Positions 55,970 to 63,217 of a stretch of DNA of 64,000 bases are shown here, piece by piece (positions within the stretch are counted from its first letter, which is position 1; the number at the start of each line of letters is the position of its first letter). Source of the DNA: Luteitalea sp. TBR-22 (GTDB taxonomy: Bacteria; Acidobacteriota; Vicinamibacteria; Vicinamibacterales; Vicinamibacteraceae); NCBI RefSeq assembly GCF_016865485.1, contig NZ_AP024452.1, positions 2,936,501 through 3,000,500 on the forward strand. The letters run 5' to 3'. The notes below the pieces were generated by a model. The model was not told the DNA's origin and did not search any database. It was given only the letters and a program-made list of their open reading frames with translations. The translations under genes and the position numbers were made by a program.

Positions 55970-56422
55970 ATGAGCGGATCCAAGACCGTCAAGATCGCGA
56001 TCTCGACCCTCGTCCTGGGACTGGCGTTCAGCGCGATGCTGTACTCGAGTCTCAGCGAGGATACGCAGTACTACAAGCACGTCAACGAGGTGATGACCCA
56101 GCCGGCCAACTGGTACGGCAAGCGCCTGCAGCTGCACGGCCATGCGTCCGACATCCGGCGCAAGCCCGACTCCCTGGACTACCGCTTCGACGTCGCGTAC
56201 GGCGGACAGGTCGTCAGGGCCAACTACACCGGCATCGTGCCCGACACGTTCAAGGACGGGTCGGAGGTGGTGGTGAAGGGGACGCTCGGGCCGGAGGGGT
56301 TCGTCGTGGAACCCAATGGCGTGATGGCGAAGTGTCCGTCCAAGTACGAGGCCGGCTCCCCGGGCAACCCGGGAGGCGCGTCGCATCCCGCAGGCGTCAA
56401 GCAGACGTCGGCCGCGAACTAG
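55970..56422 (+). CDS. ccmE: CcmE haem chaperone, CXXXY variant
   Basis: This 150-residue protein has one N-terminal transmembrane helix (about residues 8-26) and a periplasmic OB-fold domain (VKGTLGPEGFVVEPNGVMAK). In classical CcmE the haem-binding residue is His in a HxxxY motif. Here the site reads CPSKY, so Cys122 replaces His and Tyr126 is kept. This is the CXXXY type described in Desulfovibrio and archaea. The C-terminal tail is Gly/Pro-rich and ends without the usual acidic stretch. It shares the operon with all other visible ccm genes. The start follows the alignment of the membrane anchor. Confidence 0.93.
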   Translation: MSGSKTVKIAISTLVLGLAFSAMLYSSLSEDTQYYKHVNEVMTQPANWYGKRLQLHGHASDIRRKPDSLDYRFDVAYGGQVVRANYTGIVPDTFKDGSEVVVKGTLGPEGFVVEPNGVMAKCPSKYEAGSPGNPGGASHPAGVKQTSAAN

Positions 56423-56428
56423 CGCGCC

Positions 56429-58924
56429 ATGCCAGCGCTCGGCACGTTCCTCCTCCTGTCCTGCTTCGTGGTTGCGGCCTATGCCGCCACGGCGTGCCTC
56501 GCGGGCGCGCGGCGCCAGTCGACGCGCCTCACCGAGAGCGGGATCGGGGCCTTCTACCTCGTGACGGCCCTCATGTCGGTGGCCTCGGCGATCATCATGT
56601 ACGCCTTCGTCACCGACAGCTACGCCATCAAGTACGTCGATCGGTACTCCGACGCCGCGCAGCCGCTGTTGTTCAAGCTGACGGCGTACTGGGGCGGCCT
56701 CGACGGCTCGATCATGTTCTGGGTGCTGCTGCTGTCGGTGTTCGGGGCCATCGCGGTCCGGAACTCGCGCGAGTCGCACCGCGAGCTGATTCCGTACGTC
56801 GTGGCGGTCATCGCCATCGTGGAGATGTTCTTCCTCTTCCTGATGGTCGTGCACAACAACCCGTTCGAGACGTACCTGGCCGACATCCCGCCGGACGGGC
56901 AGGGGCTCAACCCGCTCCTGCAGAACGTCTACATGGTCATCCACCCGCCGTCGCTGTACATCGGCTTCGTCGGGATGACGATCCCGTTCGCGTTCGGCAT
57001 GGCGGCTCTGGCGACCGGGTACCTCGACGACTCGTGGTTGCGCGCGGTGCGGCGCTGGACGATGGTGAGCTGGCTGTTCCTGTCGCTCGGCCTCACGCTC
57101 GGGATGATCTGGGCGTACGAGGAACTCGGCTGGGGCGGCTACTGGGGCTGGGATCCGGTGGAGAACGCCGGCCTGCTGCCGTGGTTCACGGCGACCGCCT
57201 TCCTGCATTCGGTGATGGTGCAGGAGCGTCGCGGCATGCTCCGCGTGTGGAACATGACGCTGGTGATCACGACGTTCTTCCTGACGATCTTCGGCACCTT
57301 CATGACCCGCTCCGGCGTGGTGCAGTCGGTGCACGCGTTCGGCGAGGACAAGCAGCTGGCCTTCATGTTCACGGCGTTCATGACGGTGCTGCTCGTCGTG
57401 AGCTTCGGCCTGCTGATCTACCGCCTGCCGCTGCTGCGGGCCCGCCACGAGCTCGACTCCTGGATCTCGCGTGAGGCGGCGTTCCTGGCCAACAACTGGA
57501 TCCTGCTGTTCTCGGCCATCTTCGTCCTGTTCGCGACGATGTTCCCGACGCTCAGCGAGGCGGTGGCCGGCGAGCGGCTGACGGTCGGGCCGCCGTTCTT
57601 CAACAAGTGGATGCTGCCCATCGGCCTGGCGCTGCTCGCCCTCACGGGCATCGGTCCGCTGCTGGCCTGGCGCAAGTCGACGATCGACAACCTCCGGTAC
57701 CAGTTCCTCTGGCCGGTGGTCGCGGCGGTGGTGACCGGCGGCGGGTTGGTGGCGCTGGGCGTCCGTGTGTGGTCGTCGGGCACGTGCTTCGCGCTGTCGG
57801 CGTTCGTGACCGCGACCCTCGTGCAGGAGTTCGTGCGCGGCGCGCGGGTGCGCCAGCAGTACTCGGGCTCGGACCTGGTCACGTCGGCGATCGGCCTGGT
57901 GGCGCGCAACCAGCGCCGCTACGGCGGCTACATCGTCCACCTCGGCATCGTGCTGATGGCGCTGGGCTTTGCCGGCGACGGCTTCAAGCAGGAGGAGCAG
58001 CTGCTCCTCAAGCCGGGGCAGTCGGTGACGGTCGGGCCGTATTCGGTGCGCCACGACGGGATTGCGATCACGCAGGACGCGCAGAAGCAGATGGTCACCG
58101 CGCGCATGGTGGCGTTCCGCGACGGCAAGGAGATTGGCCCGATCGCTCCCGCCAAGTGGTTCTACAACAAGCGGACCGAGGAGCCGACCACCGAGGTGGC
58201 GATCCAGCGGTCCATCGGCTACGACCTCTACGTCGTGCTGGCCGGCTTCGACGCACAGCAGCAGTCGGCGACGTTCCACGTCGTGGTCAACCCGCTGGTC
58301 AACTGGATCTGGGTCGGCTTCGGCATCCTCGCCATCGGCACGCTCATCGCGTTGCTGCCCGAGCGGGCGCTGGCGACGGCCGCCGTGAAGGTGCCCGCGG
58401 GGGCCGCGACGGGCTCGTCCACGACGGTCCTCCTGCTCCTGGTGCTGTTGGGGGCGTCGGCGTTCCCGGTGCACGTGCACGCGCAAGGGCACGTCGAGGG
58501 CGCGAGCACGGTGGTCGTGCCGATGTCGCCGTTCGAGCGCGAGATGCAGGGCCAGATCGTCTGCATGTGCGGCACGTGCGGTCGCCAGCGCCTCTCGGAG
58601 TGCACGTGCGGCACCGCCGAGCAAATGCGCGTCGAACTGGCCGGCCTCGTGAAGCAGGGCTACACGCGCGAGCAGGTGCTCGACTACTACGTGCAGAAGT
58701 ACGGCAGCCAGGAGCCCCTGGCCATGCCGATCGACAAGGGGTTCAACCGCCTGGCCTGGGCGGTCCCCTACGCGGTGGGCGTGGCCGGCGCGATCTTCGC
58801 CGGTGCAGCCGCCTTCCGCTGGAGTCGTCGTCGGCATGGACCGGAGGCGGCTCCCGCCGTCGAGGCAACGCAGGCCGAGGCCTGGCAGCAGAAGCTCGAC
58901 GAGGAACTGCGTGACCTCGACTGA
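56429..58924 (+). CDS. ccmF: CcmF-CcmH fusion, cytochrome c haem lyase
   Basis: This 831-residue membrane protein joins two subunits normally encoded separately. Residues 1 to about 650 are CcmF, with many transmembrane helices and the WWD domain (WGGYWGWDPVENAGLLPW), followed by HSVMVQERRGMLRVWNM and GTFMTRSGVVQSVHAF. A hydrophobic anchor (about 663-684) leads to a CcmH-like domain from about residue 700 with redox cysteines CMCGTC (Cys712, 714, 717). GYTREQVLDYYVQKYGSQEPLA and a final transmembrane helix follow. It takes haem from CcmE and ligates it to apocytochromes held by the CcmH part. Confidence 0.93.
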   Translation: MPALGTFLLLSCFVVAAYAATACLAGARRQSTRLTESGIGAFYLVTALMSVASAIIMYAFVTDSYAIKYVDRYSDAAQPLLFKLTAYWGGLDGSIMFWVLLLSVFGAIAVRNSRESHRELIPYVVAVIAIVEMFFLFLMVVHNNPFETYLADIPPDGQGLNPLLQNVYMVIHPPSLYIGFVGMTIPFAFGMAALATGYLDDSWLRAVRRWTMVSWLFLSLGLTLGMIWAYEELGWGGYWGWDPVENAGLLPWFTATAFLHSVMVQERRGMLRVWNMTLVITTFFLTIFGTFMTRSGVVQSVHAFGEDKQLAFMFTAFMTVLLVVSFGLLIYRLPLLRARHELDSWISREAAFLANNWILLFSAIFVLFATMFPTLSEAVAGERLTVGPPFFNKWMLPIGLALLALTGIGPLLAWRKSTIDNLRYQFLWPVVAAVVTGGGLVALGVRVWSSGTCFALSAFVTATLVQEFVRGARVRQQYSGSDLVTSAIGLVARNQRRYGGYIVHLGIVLMALGFAGDGFKQEEQLLLKPGQSVTVGPYSVRHDGIAITQDAQKQMVTARMVAFRDGKEIGPIAPAKWFYNKRTEEPTTEVAIQRSIGYDLYVVLAGFDAQQQSATFHVVVNPLVNWIWVGFGILAIGTLIALLPERALATAAVKVPAGAATGSSTTVLLLLVLLGASAFPVHVHAQGHVEGASTVVVPMSPFEREMQGQIVCMCGTCGRQRLSECTCGTAEQMRVELAGLVKQGYTREQVLDYYVQKYGSQEPLAMPIDKGFNRLAWAVPYAVGVAGAIFAGAAAFRWSRRRHGPEAAPAVEATQAEAWQQKLDEELRDLD

Positions 58925-59459
58925 TTCCGGCGGCGCCCGCGCCTGGCAATTCTTCATCGTCCTGGGGCTGGTGGGGGCGACGGCTGCCGTCTGGCGGGAG
59001 CCGCGCTTCACCCGCCCGGAACACCTCGTCCTGCTCAGCATCGGCATCGTCGCCGCCGCCCTGGCGGCCACGGCCTTGCACCGCACGCTGCTGCCGCTGG
59101 TGATGCCCGAGCGCGTCGTCGGCGACGCCCGCCGATCGACGCGGCACCTCATCGCGCTCGAGCGCGAGAAGAAGCTCGTGCTGCGCAGCATCAAGGAACT
59201 GGAGTTCGACAAGGCGATGGGCAAGGTCGCCGAGCCGGACTTCGACGAGATGGTCGGCCGACTGCGGCAGCGCGCCGTGGGGCTGATGCAACGCATCGAC
59301 GCTGGCGAGGCGGGACTGCGCGAGCGCATCGCGAGCGACCTGGCCGGCCTCAAGACCCAGAAGGGCGGCAAGAAGGTGAGCGCGCAGCAGTGCGGGCAGT
59401 GCCGGACGCTCAACGACGCCGACGCGCGGTTCTGCAAGACGTGCGGAGCAACGCTGTGA
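58911..59459 (+). CDS. Membrane-anchored zinc-ribbon protein in the ccm operon
   Basis: This 182-residue protein has two transmembrane helices (AWQFFIVLGLVGATAAVW; LVLLSIGIVAAALAATAL), a helical, coiled-coil-like middle (LIALEREKKLVLRSIKELEFD) and a C-terminal zinc ribbon with CGQC and CKTC. The start is GTG at 58911, overlapping the ccmF stop by 14 bases; longer starts run into ccmF. Its place after CcmH and its two helices plus coiled coil recall CcmI, but it has no TPR domain. A CcmI-like role is inference. Confidence 0.75.
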   Translation: MTSTDSGGARAWQFFIVLGLVGATAAVWREPRFTRPEHLVLLSIGIVAAALAATALHRTLLPLVMPERVVGDARRSTRHLIALEREKKLVLRSIKELEFDKAMGKVAEPDFDEMVGRLRQRAVGLMQRIDAGEAGLRERIASDLAGLKTQKGGKKVSAQQCGQCRTLNDADARFCKTCGATL

Positions 59460-60715
59460 TGGCACGAGGGATGGTGTTCGCGGGGGCGTTGGTGGCGCTG
59501 CTGATCCTGTCGACGGCCAGTGGACCGGCGGCTGCGCAGCAGATGCCAGATCTTCGGCAGATGAATGGCATGGCGTTGCCGAGCCAGGACCTGCCCGACG
59601 GCTCCGTCTCGGTGCGCGTGTTGCGGCAGACGATGGGGAACAACGCCGTCGGCGTGGAGGTCTCGGTCAGCGGCGATGGCGTGACCGACAAGGCGCCGAC
59701 CGACGAATCGGGGCGGGCCATCTTCGCTGGCCTCGGGGCCGGCAAGACGCTGGTGGCGACGGTCACCGTCGATGGCGAGTCCCTGACGTCGCAGCCCTTC
59801 CAGGTTCCGGCCAAGGGCGGCCTCCGCGTGATTCTCGTGTCGGGTCTCAACGGCACCGCGAGCGGCGCCGCTGGCGGTCCCGCCAGTGGGGCGGCGGCGC
59901 CTCCCGGAGCACCGGCATTGCCTGCCCGCCCTGGCATCGTGGTGCTCGGCACCCAGTGGCGCACCATCGTCGACTTCGCCGAGGAGAAGCTCGAGATCTT
60001 CCACATCTTCGAGTTCGTCAACGCCGGCGCCGCCCCGGTCTCGGTCGACAAGCCGATCGAGGTGACGCTGCCCGCCGATGCCGAACAGGCGAGCCTGCTC
60101 GAGGGCTCGGCACCCAGCGCCCGCATCTTCGAACGCAAGCTCGTGGTGGCAGGCCCGTTTGCGCCAGGCCGCACGCTCGCGCAGGTCGCCTATCGACTGC
60201 CGATCACCGGCGGTCGTCGCGAGGTGTCGATCGTGTTGCCCGTCGCGAGCATGGCCACCAACGTGATCCTGCGCCGGCTCGGCGACACGCGGCTGGCCTC
60301 GCCGACGCTGCCGCAGTCGCAGCAGGCCGACGTCGAAGGCAAGGCCTACTGGACGGGGACCGGCCCGGGCATGAAGGCTGGCGAGACGCTGACCCTGGTC
60401 GTCGAGGGCATGCCCCACCATCCCGTGTGGCCGCGGTACACGGCACTCACGCTCGCCGCGCTCGTCGTCGCCACCGGGCTGTGGGTGATGTTCCGCGTGC
60501 CGGTGGACCCCACCGCGCGGATCAAGGCCCTGGAAGCGCAGCGGACCACCCTTCTGGCCCGCCTTCAGCGACTGGAGCAGGGCGGGGAGCCGGCCACCGA
60601 GGAACTCCGCGACGAGCGCGATGCCGTGTTGCGCGACCTCGAGGGCGTCTACGCGCTCCTGGACGCCGAGCGCGTCCGCGCGGGGCAAGCGCCAGCCATC
60701 CGCCAGGCGTCGTAG
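59459..60715 (+). CDS. Exported beta-sandwich protein in the ccm operon
   Basis: This 418-residue protein has a signal peptide (about residues 1-26, ending PAAAQ). A carboxypeptidase-regulatory-like beta domain (VSVSGDGVTDKAPTDESGRAIFAGL) follows, then a Gly/Ala/Pro linker. A second beta domain has an FEFVNAGAAPVSVDKPIEVTLP segment, then a transmembrane helix (about 325-345) and a cytoplasmic coiled coil. The start overlaps the previous stop by one base. Its position between CcmF/H and CcmA/B suggests a part in cytochrome c or electron-carrier assembly; no known Ccm subunit matches. Confidence 0.75.
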   Translation: MARGMVFAGALVALLILSTASGPAAAQQMPDLRQMNGMALPSQDLPDGSVSVRVLRQTMGNNAVGVEVSVSGDGVTDKAPTDESGRAIFAGLGAGKTLVATVTVDGESLTSQPFQVPAKGGLRVILVSGLNGTASGAAGGPASGAAAPPGAPALPARPGIVVLGTQWRTIVDFAEEKLEIFHIFEFVNAGAAPVSVDKPIEVTLPADAEQASLLEGSAPSARIFERKLVVAGPFAPGRTLAQVAYRLPITGGRREVSIVLPVASMATNVILRRLGDTRLASPTLPQSQQADVEGKAYWTGTGPGMKAGETLTLVVEGMPHHPVWPRYTALTLAALVVATGLWVMFRVPVDPTARIKALEAQRTTLLARLQRLEQGGEPATEELRDERDAVLRDLEGVYALLDAERVRAGQAPAIRQAS

Positions 60716-62902: not shown

Positions 62903-63217
62903 ATGACGACCCTCGTGACCCGCTACGCTCGTTCCCTGGCACTCGCGTGCGCGCTGCTGGCCGCCGTCGGTGTGCGTCCGGCCCTGGCCCAGGCTCCCGA
63001 GACGCAGCCCGGCAAGACGACCACGGCGGCGCAGGACGAGTACGTCCCCATCGACCAGCTTCCGGACAACGAGAAGCTGCCGGCGGCGCCCTTCGTCATC
63101 GGGGCCTACGCGGTGGCGTGGGTGGCGATTCTCGTCTACCTGCTGATGCTGTGGCGCCGGCTCGGTCGCGTCGAAGCCGACCTGCACGACGCCCGGCGGC
63201 TCGCCGCGGGGAAGTAG
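62903..63217 (+). CDS. ccmD: CcmD-like small membrane protein
   Basis: This 104-residue protein has an N-terminal signal-like segment ending RPALAQ, a short acidic linker (EYVPIDQLP), one transmembrane helix (APFVIGAYAVAWVAILVYLLMLW) and a basic amphipathic tail (RRLGRVEADLHDARRL). CcmD is a small single-helix protein that stabilises CcmABC with CcmE; this version is longer because of the N-terminal signal. Its position right after ccmC supports the call. Confidence 0.85.
   Translation: MTTLVTRYARSLALACALLAAVGVRPALAQAPETQPGKTTTAAQDEYVPIDQLPDNEKLPAAPFVIGAYAVAWVAILVYLLMLWRRLGRVEADLHDARRLAAGK

Follow-up and report, generated by a model that had tools for sequence, protein, structure and literature searches.

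A Cys-type cytochrome c maturation operon with a five-cysteine CcmH domain fused to CcmF in Luteitalea sp. TBR-22

Introduction

Does a haem chaperone that carries cysteine in place of its haem-binding histidine go with the loss of CcmH, and, where a CcmH does stand beside it, of what kind is that CcmH? The question is raised by a cytochrome c maturation (ccm) locus of Luteitalea sp. TBR-22, lying in a stretch of 64,000 nucleotides (the window; positions 2,936,501 to 3,000,500 of contig NZ_AP024452.1; coordinates below count from its first letter). A first-pass annotation of the locus had described a CcmE with a CPSKY haem site next to a protein with a CcmH-like domain, and had taken this as a break in the usual pairing of CXXXY-type CcmE with absence of CcmH. 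The observation is confirmed here, and its interpretation is partly supported.

The literature bears directly on this pairing. Absence of CcmH belonged to the 2006 definition of System I* (Cys-type) and was dropped in 2011, when a review (PMC3601427) found CcmH in about one-third of bacteria with Cys-type CcmE and called the lack of it "not a characteristic feature"; among Cys-type motifs it saw CPSKY most often (25 of 36 genomes). Also described are CXXXY CcmE with two putative CcmH proteins in Geoglobus and Ferroglobus (PMC4600277), CcmH homologues in Ferroglobus (PMC4429474) and CcmH in ANME-2d (PMC9012536). That CXXXY stands beside CcmH is not new, and the question of the pairing is already answered in print. 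We consider the better finding to be the form of this CcmH, a five-cysteine domain fused to CcmF, together with the fact that no sampled Cys-type locus with CcmH has the LRCxxC motif. A literature search combining Ccm terms with Acidobacteri- found no paper on a Cys-type Ccm with such a CcmH in Acidobacteriota; PMC4600277 is a partial archaeal precedent for a cysteine-rich CcmH beside CXXXY.

Results

A cysteine replaces the haem-binding histidine in the only CcmE of the genome

The features of the operon are collected in Table 1; CcmA, CcmB, CcmC, CcmD, CcmF and CcmH were named by family models, several of the NCBIfam matches lying below their cut-offs.

Table 1. Features of the ccm operon in window coordinates.
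Feature	Coordinates	Strand	Evidence or remark
ccmE, Cys-type, 150 aa	55970..56422	+	ATG to TAG; site K-C122-P-S-K-Y126
CPSKY codons, Cys122 (TGT) to Tyr126	56333..56347	+	read in sequence
CcmF part of fusion, residues 1-644	56429..58360	+	PF16327 6.1e-53, PF01578 1.6e-36
CcmH-like domain without LRCxxC, residues 713-815 of fusion	58565..58873	+	PF03918 E 4.6e-13
Five-cysteine stretch C712-M-C714-G-T-C717-(7)-C725-T-C727	58562..58609	+	sequence
CcmI-like small membrane protein, C-terminal zinc-ribbon-like stretch	58926..59459	+	start codon unsure (ORF listed from 58803)
CPDreg (conserved unnamed membrane-protein gene)	59459..60715	+	predicted model
CcmA-CcmB fusion, 507 aa	60716..62239	+	ABC_tran 20-158, CcmB 282-490
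ccmC, 219 aa	62241..62900	+	PF01578 5.9e-27
ccmD, alternative family	62903..63217	+	TIGR04391 27.6 bits, above cut-off 24

The ccmE product belongs to Pfam family PF03100 (E 2.7e-20, 73 bits; curated cut-off 24.6) and scores below the own cut-off of each of the eight NCBIfam CcmE equivalogs listed. Its sole cysteine, Cys122 (codon TGT at 56333, context MAKCPSKYE), takes the place of the haem-binding histidine, with Tyr126 four residues on, as in System I*; in HMMER alignments CPSKY falls column for column on HDENY of CcmE chains 8ce8 and 1sr3, and Cys122 on the cysteine of chain 2kct. The replacement of HxxxY by CPSKY described in the first-pass annotation is borne out by the open reading frame, the PF03100 match and these alignments.

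CcmE is present in 165 of 193 genomes of the host class. A comparison of CcmE sites across 60 class loci (the window and 59 picked from the family matches) gave 51 CXXXY and 9 HXXXY sites, and both congeners read (L062, L063) have MAKCPSKYE, so the Cys site is not a chance occurrence; a frameshift or misreading of CcmE was rejected, and relatives keep the site. By the first-pass annotation's own criterion, a second CcmE of HXXXY type would have refuted its reading, and we looked for one throughout the genome (6.47 Mb, one contig); no second CcmE, HXXXY or other, was found, PF03100 matching once.

The same contig holds one CcmF_C, one PF03918 (CcmH) and one DsbD_TM match. A second maturation system, through ResB, was rejected, the sole ResB match in the genome being the tail of the window's CcmF. 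The CcmG/DsbE model TIGR00385 has no genome match above its 123-bit cut-off and three weaker ones (best 49.6 bits), which may be CcmG or TlpA/ResA-like reductants. There are 39 Cytochrome_CBB3 matches in the genome, 30 of them above cut-off, and these proteins are possible clients of the operon.

A five-cysteine CcmH domain is fused to CcmF

Directly downstream of ccmE, an 831-residue product (56429-58924) joins CcmF to a CcmH-like domain. The CcmF part aligns with CcmF chain 6zmq (E 8.7e-101) and carries WGGYWGWDPVENA at 235, HPP at 172, SVHAF at 300 and HLGI at 504. The CcmH-like domain scores 49.1 bits against PF03918 (cut-off 25) and belongs to that family, in agreement with the earlier remark that a CcmH-like domain adjoins CcmE; the operon thereby departs from the 2006 'no CcmH' definition of System I*, which PMC3601427 gave up. 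What the first-pass annotation had missed is that this CcmH lacks LRCxxC and is a five-cysteine variant, and that two further conserved genes belong to the operon.

In place of the LRCxxC dithiol of the classical redox-type CcmH stands VCMCGTCGRQRLSECTCG. All five cysteine columns are invariant in the 28 of 28 aligned CcmH sequences, an alignment made of the window and 27 of 61 CcmH pieces gathered by a pattern that requires the first cysteines, and leaving out, among others, three pieces with long misread N-termini. The pattern CxC...C...C...C recurs in 117 of the 119 cysteine-rich CcmH loci, the spacing of the cysteines varying and their count remaining constant.

A predicted model of fusion residues 690-831 (pLDDT 85.6, pTM 0.52) has the three-helix CcmH fold and a transmembrane helix. 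Its best PDB matches are both CcmH, namely 2hl7, which comes first (Foldseek E 4.3e-3; Z 8.9, rmsd 3.1, 72 residues), and 2kw0 (Foldseek E 4.2e-2; Z 6.7, rmsd 3.2, 73 residues), with Z values in a range common for helical bundles and modest taken alone, so that the CcmH assignment rests mainly on the PF03918 match. We conclude that the window CcmH is a non-classical, five-cysteine variant fused to CcmF.

Two other types of CcmH-like protein were seen in short stretches of DNA without a CcmA, CcmC, CcmE or CcmF match. One has CC replacing LRCxxC, typically APCCWSQQVSVHQS (L042-L050, L052-L054, L056, L057, L059, L295-L300, L303, L304), and the other has MSPxCPG (L051, L055, L061, L301, L302, L305, L306, L308-L310).

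Two further conserved genes and a characteristic gene order

The gene after the fusion encodes a CcmI-like small membrane protein that zinc-ribbon models match below cut-off only. Neither the Pfam TPR models nor the CcmI model TIGR03142 (cut-off 29.3 bits) match the window protein, which in both respects departs from CcmI. Of four relatives, three do match TIGR03142, though below cut-off (E 2e-5, 5.2e-5 and 1.3e-3). The family profile of the CcmI-like protein weakly picks up proteins of three HXXXY operons (E 2e-4 to 4.5e-6), and these are CcmI by TIGR03142 (101-114 bits vs. 29.3).

CPDreg, which has a weak carboxypeptidase-regulatory-like stretch below cut-off, is predicted (pLDDT 74.8, pTM 0.46) to consist of an N-terminal, signal-like helix, two beta-rich domains, one TM-like helix and a C-terminal helical hairpin. 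Its nearest structures among the 50 Foldseek matches listed are oligosaccharyltransferase complex chains and aminopeptidase N-type proteins, and at TM-scores of 0.12-0.31 these likenesses of a predicted model are suggestive only. The C-terminal hairpin appears CcmI-like by eye, but of six C-terminal pieces TIGR03142 picked up just one (E 0.024), besides the Metabacillus protein (E 0.017). CPDreg might do what the TPR domain does in CcmI and hold the apocytochrome. The weak resemblance to CPDreg of a carboxypeptidase-regulatory-like protein encoded next to ccm genes in Halobacterium was not used as evidence.

A CcmA-CcmB fusion in a single frame is confined, among the non-identical loci scanned, to the window and the congener L062 (529-aa ORF). 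The ccmC product matches TIGR01191 (3.5e-35, 121.6 bits) below the cut-off of 186.

Gene order was scored in non-identical loci extending as far as ccmC. The full series E-F-CcmI-like-CPDreg-A-B-C stands in this order in 36 of 37 CXXXY loci from the host class and in 38 of 40 loci from the best 80 of 288 relatives; in the wider phylum set it is complete in 8 of 32, the others lacking CPDreg only (15), lacking more (7) or having all genes in another order (2). It recurs at one Metabacillus plasmid locus, with Cytobacillus annotated alike, and is found in 0 of 17 HXXXY loci. The nine HXXXY operons of the host class lack both the CcmI-like gene and CPDreg. Among loci with CcmH in the locus, the CcmI-like gene (E < 1e-6) occurs in 115/121 CXXXY vs. 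0/20 HXXXY, and CPDreg in 95/121 vs. 1/20 (L282), a second HXXXY locus (L283) giving a weaker match.

Ligand type and CcmH motif do not mix across the sampled loci

For the contingency count 206 loci were given, nearly all of one phylum; 205 have CcmE (L118 does not), and counting 8 identical CcmEs once leaves 197. The count was made apart from L001-L061 and L202-L231 (short, and in many cases covered again by longer loci), L295-L310 (distant CcmH-like genes), L313-L341 and L342-L345. CXXXY loci comprise 119 with a cysteine-rich CcmH, 2 with another motif without LRCxxC (L194, L311), 53 without CcmH in the locus, in some cases because the contig ends there, and 0 with LRCxxC; HXXXY loci comprise 20 with an LRCxxC CcmH and 3 without CcmH in the locus. 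No mixed locus, whether HXXXY without LRCxxC or CXXXY with it, occurs among the 20 HXXXY and 121 CXXXY loci that have both genes.

By source, with identical CcmEs kept, the host class gave 44 cysteine-rich, 7 without CcmH and 9 LRCxxC loci; the phylum set gave 21, 29 and 11, plus 2 HXXXY loci without CcmH; and the relatives search, limited to the best 80 of 288 (almost all titled Acidobacteria/Acidobacteriota), gave 61 cysteine-rich, 1 other and 18 without CcmH, all CXXXY because its search patterns ask for Cys. CXXXY with CcmH is the norm in the host class, and the co-occurrence survey (44 of 51 class CXXXY loci with CcmH in the locus) is at odds with the earlier view that a usual pairing is broken here. 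In the phylum sample CcmE is present in 186 of 297 genomes, PF03918 in 146 and both in 142; the ligand type was read in part of the 186, and the PF03918 matches include orphan genes that lie apart from ccm.

For other phyla the sampling came from plasmid records only and took in regions of Bacillota, Actinomycetota, Deinococcota and Halobacteria. On inspection by eye, Pseudonocardia, with HDENY and LRCPVC, and Cytobacillus, with CPSKY and without LRCxxC, fit the rule. Two haloarchaeal plasmid CcmEs (Natronorubrum L342, 7001-7456; Halobacterium L343, 6944-7369) have the site RAHEGE, neither CXXXY nor HXXXY, and were not counted; almost all archaeal CcmE are described as having Cys (PMC9084895).

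One genome may be an exception. G176 has a ccm locus (L119) with CPSKY and a cysteine-rich fusion, while another contig, of 9 kb, carries an RCLVC-type CcmH; the stretches of that contig that were read gave neither a CcmE nor a CcmF match, and this CcmH is perhaps contamination. In a separate case, the G256 bin contains CPSKY and HDEQY CcmEs on two short contigs (L247, L248), from real coexistence or contamination.

A CcmF tree of 166 rows has one change between the CXXXY and HXXXY types, on a separating branch with a support of 55 at which long branches meet; in it, the CcmFs of L141 (titled Bacillota) and L201 (titled Betaproteobacteria) fall among Acidobacteriota ones. With one change only, repeated coevolution is not claimed, and the association of ligand and CcmH, which is weak evidence for coevolution, may go back to a single ancient split preserved because the genes are inherited jointly. 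CXXXY beside CcmH without LRCxxC in Bacillota plasmids and, by report, in archaea makes the association old and broad, which is not functional proof.

Discussion

We read the window as a System I* cytochrome c maturation operon holding the only CcmE, CcmF and CcmH matches of its genome, and we give this reading, with the haem steps outlined below, a probability of roughly 0.88; it is a little-described subtype of System I*. The analysis shows the gene content, single copies and gene order, the Cys site, the predicted CcmH fold, the missing LRCxxC and the five conserved cysteines; the chemistry that follows is inferred. By analogy with D. desulfuricans and M. acetivorans, CcmAB, CcmC and CcmD would attach haem to CcmE at Cys122, probably through a thioether, and Tyr126 would serve as iron ligand; holo-CcmE would then pass haem to the WWD stretch of CcmF, and the five-cysteine CcmH domain, tethered by the fusion, may hold or reduce the thiols of apocytochrome CXXCH or carry a structural metal. 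Covalent attachment at Cys122 would accord with M. acetivorans CcmE, in which C120A shows no haem (the C120H protein was not detected; PMC9084895), and with the covalent haem of Desulfovibrio CcmE (PMC3601427); against it, the binding of ferric haem by CcmE of D. vulgaris, through the conserved Cys, was reported to be non-covalent (PMC3884852). Cytochrome maturation does without CcmH in Desulfovibrio and in most archaea, so the CcmH domain of the window need not be essential.

Several readings of the CXXXY-CcmH combination have to be weighed. That the window is an exceptional break of a CXXXY/no-CcmH pairing, as the first reading of the locus had it, would suit the title of the 2006 paper ('no CcmH'), but it is very improbable given the revision in PMC3601427, the archaeal CcmH proteins of PMC4600277, PMC4429474 and PMC9012536, and the CcmH found in 44 of 51 class CXXXY loci. 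We see about an even chance that the combination is frozen history, two ancient operon lineages having been inherited or transferred whole, with ligand and CcmH motif travelling together without mechanistic need. The single change on the CcmF tree speaks for this, and the gene-order difference (0/17 HXXXY loci) together with both extra genes missing from the nine class HXXXY operons fits whole-operon replacement; yet the recurrence of the combination in Bacillota plasmids and, by report, archaea points to an old module kept together, and E. coli H130C CcmE, which binds haem and cannot hand it over (PMC9084895), suggests a real constraint. It is possible, though in our view doubtful, that ligand and CcmH thiol motif are functionally matched and that a Cys chaperone works only with a CcmH without LRCxxC, the argument being that a CcmH of the classical dithiol kind would become disulfide-linked to the CcmE Cys or fail to release the thioether haem. 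Such matching would agree with the lack of mixed loci (HXXXY with LRCxxC in 20/20, CXXXY without it in 121/121, from 197 non-identical CcmE loci), with Pseudonocardia and Cytobacillus as read by eye, and with Geoglobus and Ferroglobus as reported in PMC4600277; however, the tree needs one change (166 rows, support 55, long branches) and so maybe one event, 80 loci (the best 80 of 288) came from a search by Cys-type patterns, CcmH is missing from the locus in 53 of 174 CXXXY cases, some of them at contig ends, and G176 combines a CPSKY CcmE with its RCLVC-type CcmH, perhaps through contamination.

A related choice concerns the five cysteines themselves. We put at slightly under even odds the reading that they bind a structural metal (zinc or similar) and that thiol-disulfide activity is lost, a judgement made from the sequences: five columns invariant in 28/28, CxC...C...C...C in 117/119, and a count that stays while spacing varies would suit a metal site, but a reducing multi-thiol site would look alike, and both Bacillota CcmH proteins have just two cysteines in the region. 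Tentatively, and with the odds against it, System I may comprise two non-mixing modules whose thiol centre is chemically matched to the ligand, one with a His chaperone, an LRCxxC CcmH and a TPR CcmI, the other with a Cys chaperone, a multi-thiol CcmH, a TPR-less CcmI-like protein and a beta-sandwich CPDreg that would take over apocytochrome presentation.

PMC3601427 and PMC9084895 pose two questions: how the haem thioether on a CcmE cysteine could be cleaved once formed, and what prevents His and Cys chaperones from standing in for each other. Should the CcmH thiol centre indeed switch along with the ligand, the CcmF-CcmH partner may hold the answer, and the natural fusion offers a single polypeptide for testing the match between ligand and thiol.

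Comparison with known systems

Desulfovibrio System I* shares with the window a Cys-type CcmE and a Ccm set without the His ligand; it is described as lacking CcmH and CcmG (PMC3601427), whereas the window has a CcmH domain fused to CcmF. The archaeal Ccm systems of Geoglobus and Ferroglobus have CXXXY CcmE and cysteine-rich CcmH-like proteins without LRCXXC, but, as reported in PMC4600277, their motif is LX[SN]C[EDH]C and the two genes flank a duplicate CcmF, in contrast to one domain with CxCGxC...CxC fused to the sole CcmF of the window. Classical System I and the HXXXY operons of the host class (L102-L110) use the same core proteins and the same CcmH family, and differ in their His ligand, LRCPxCQ CcmH and gene order and in having no CcmI-like/CPDreg pair. 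The Metabacillus and Cytobacillus plasmid operons (L311, L345) resemble the window in their CPSKY CcmE and in their order, E-F-H-hypothetical-hypothetical-A-B-C followed by TlpA; their CcmH, however, is separate from CcmF and has ELHPPGC...C instead of five cysteines.
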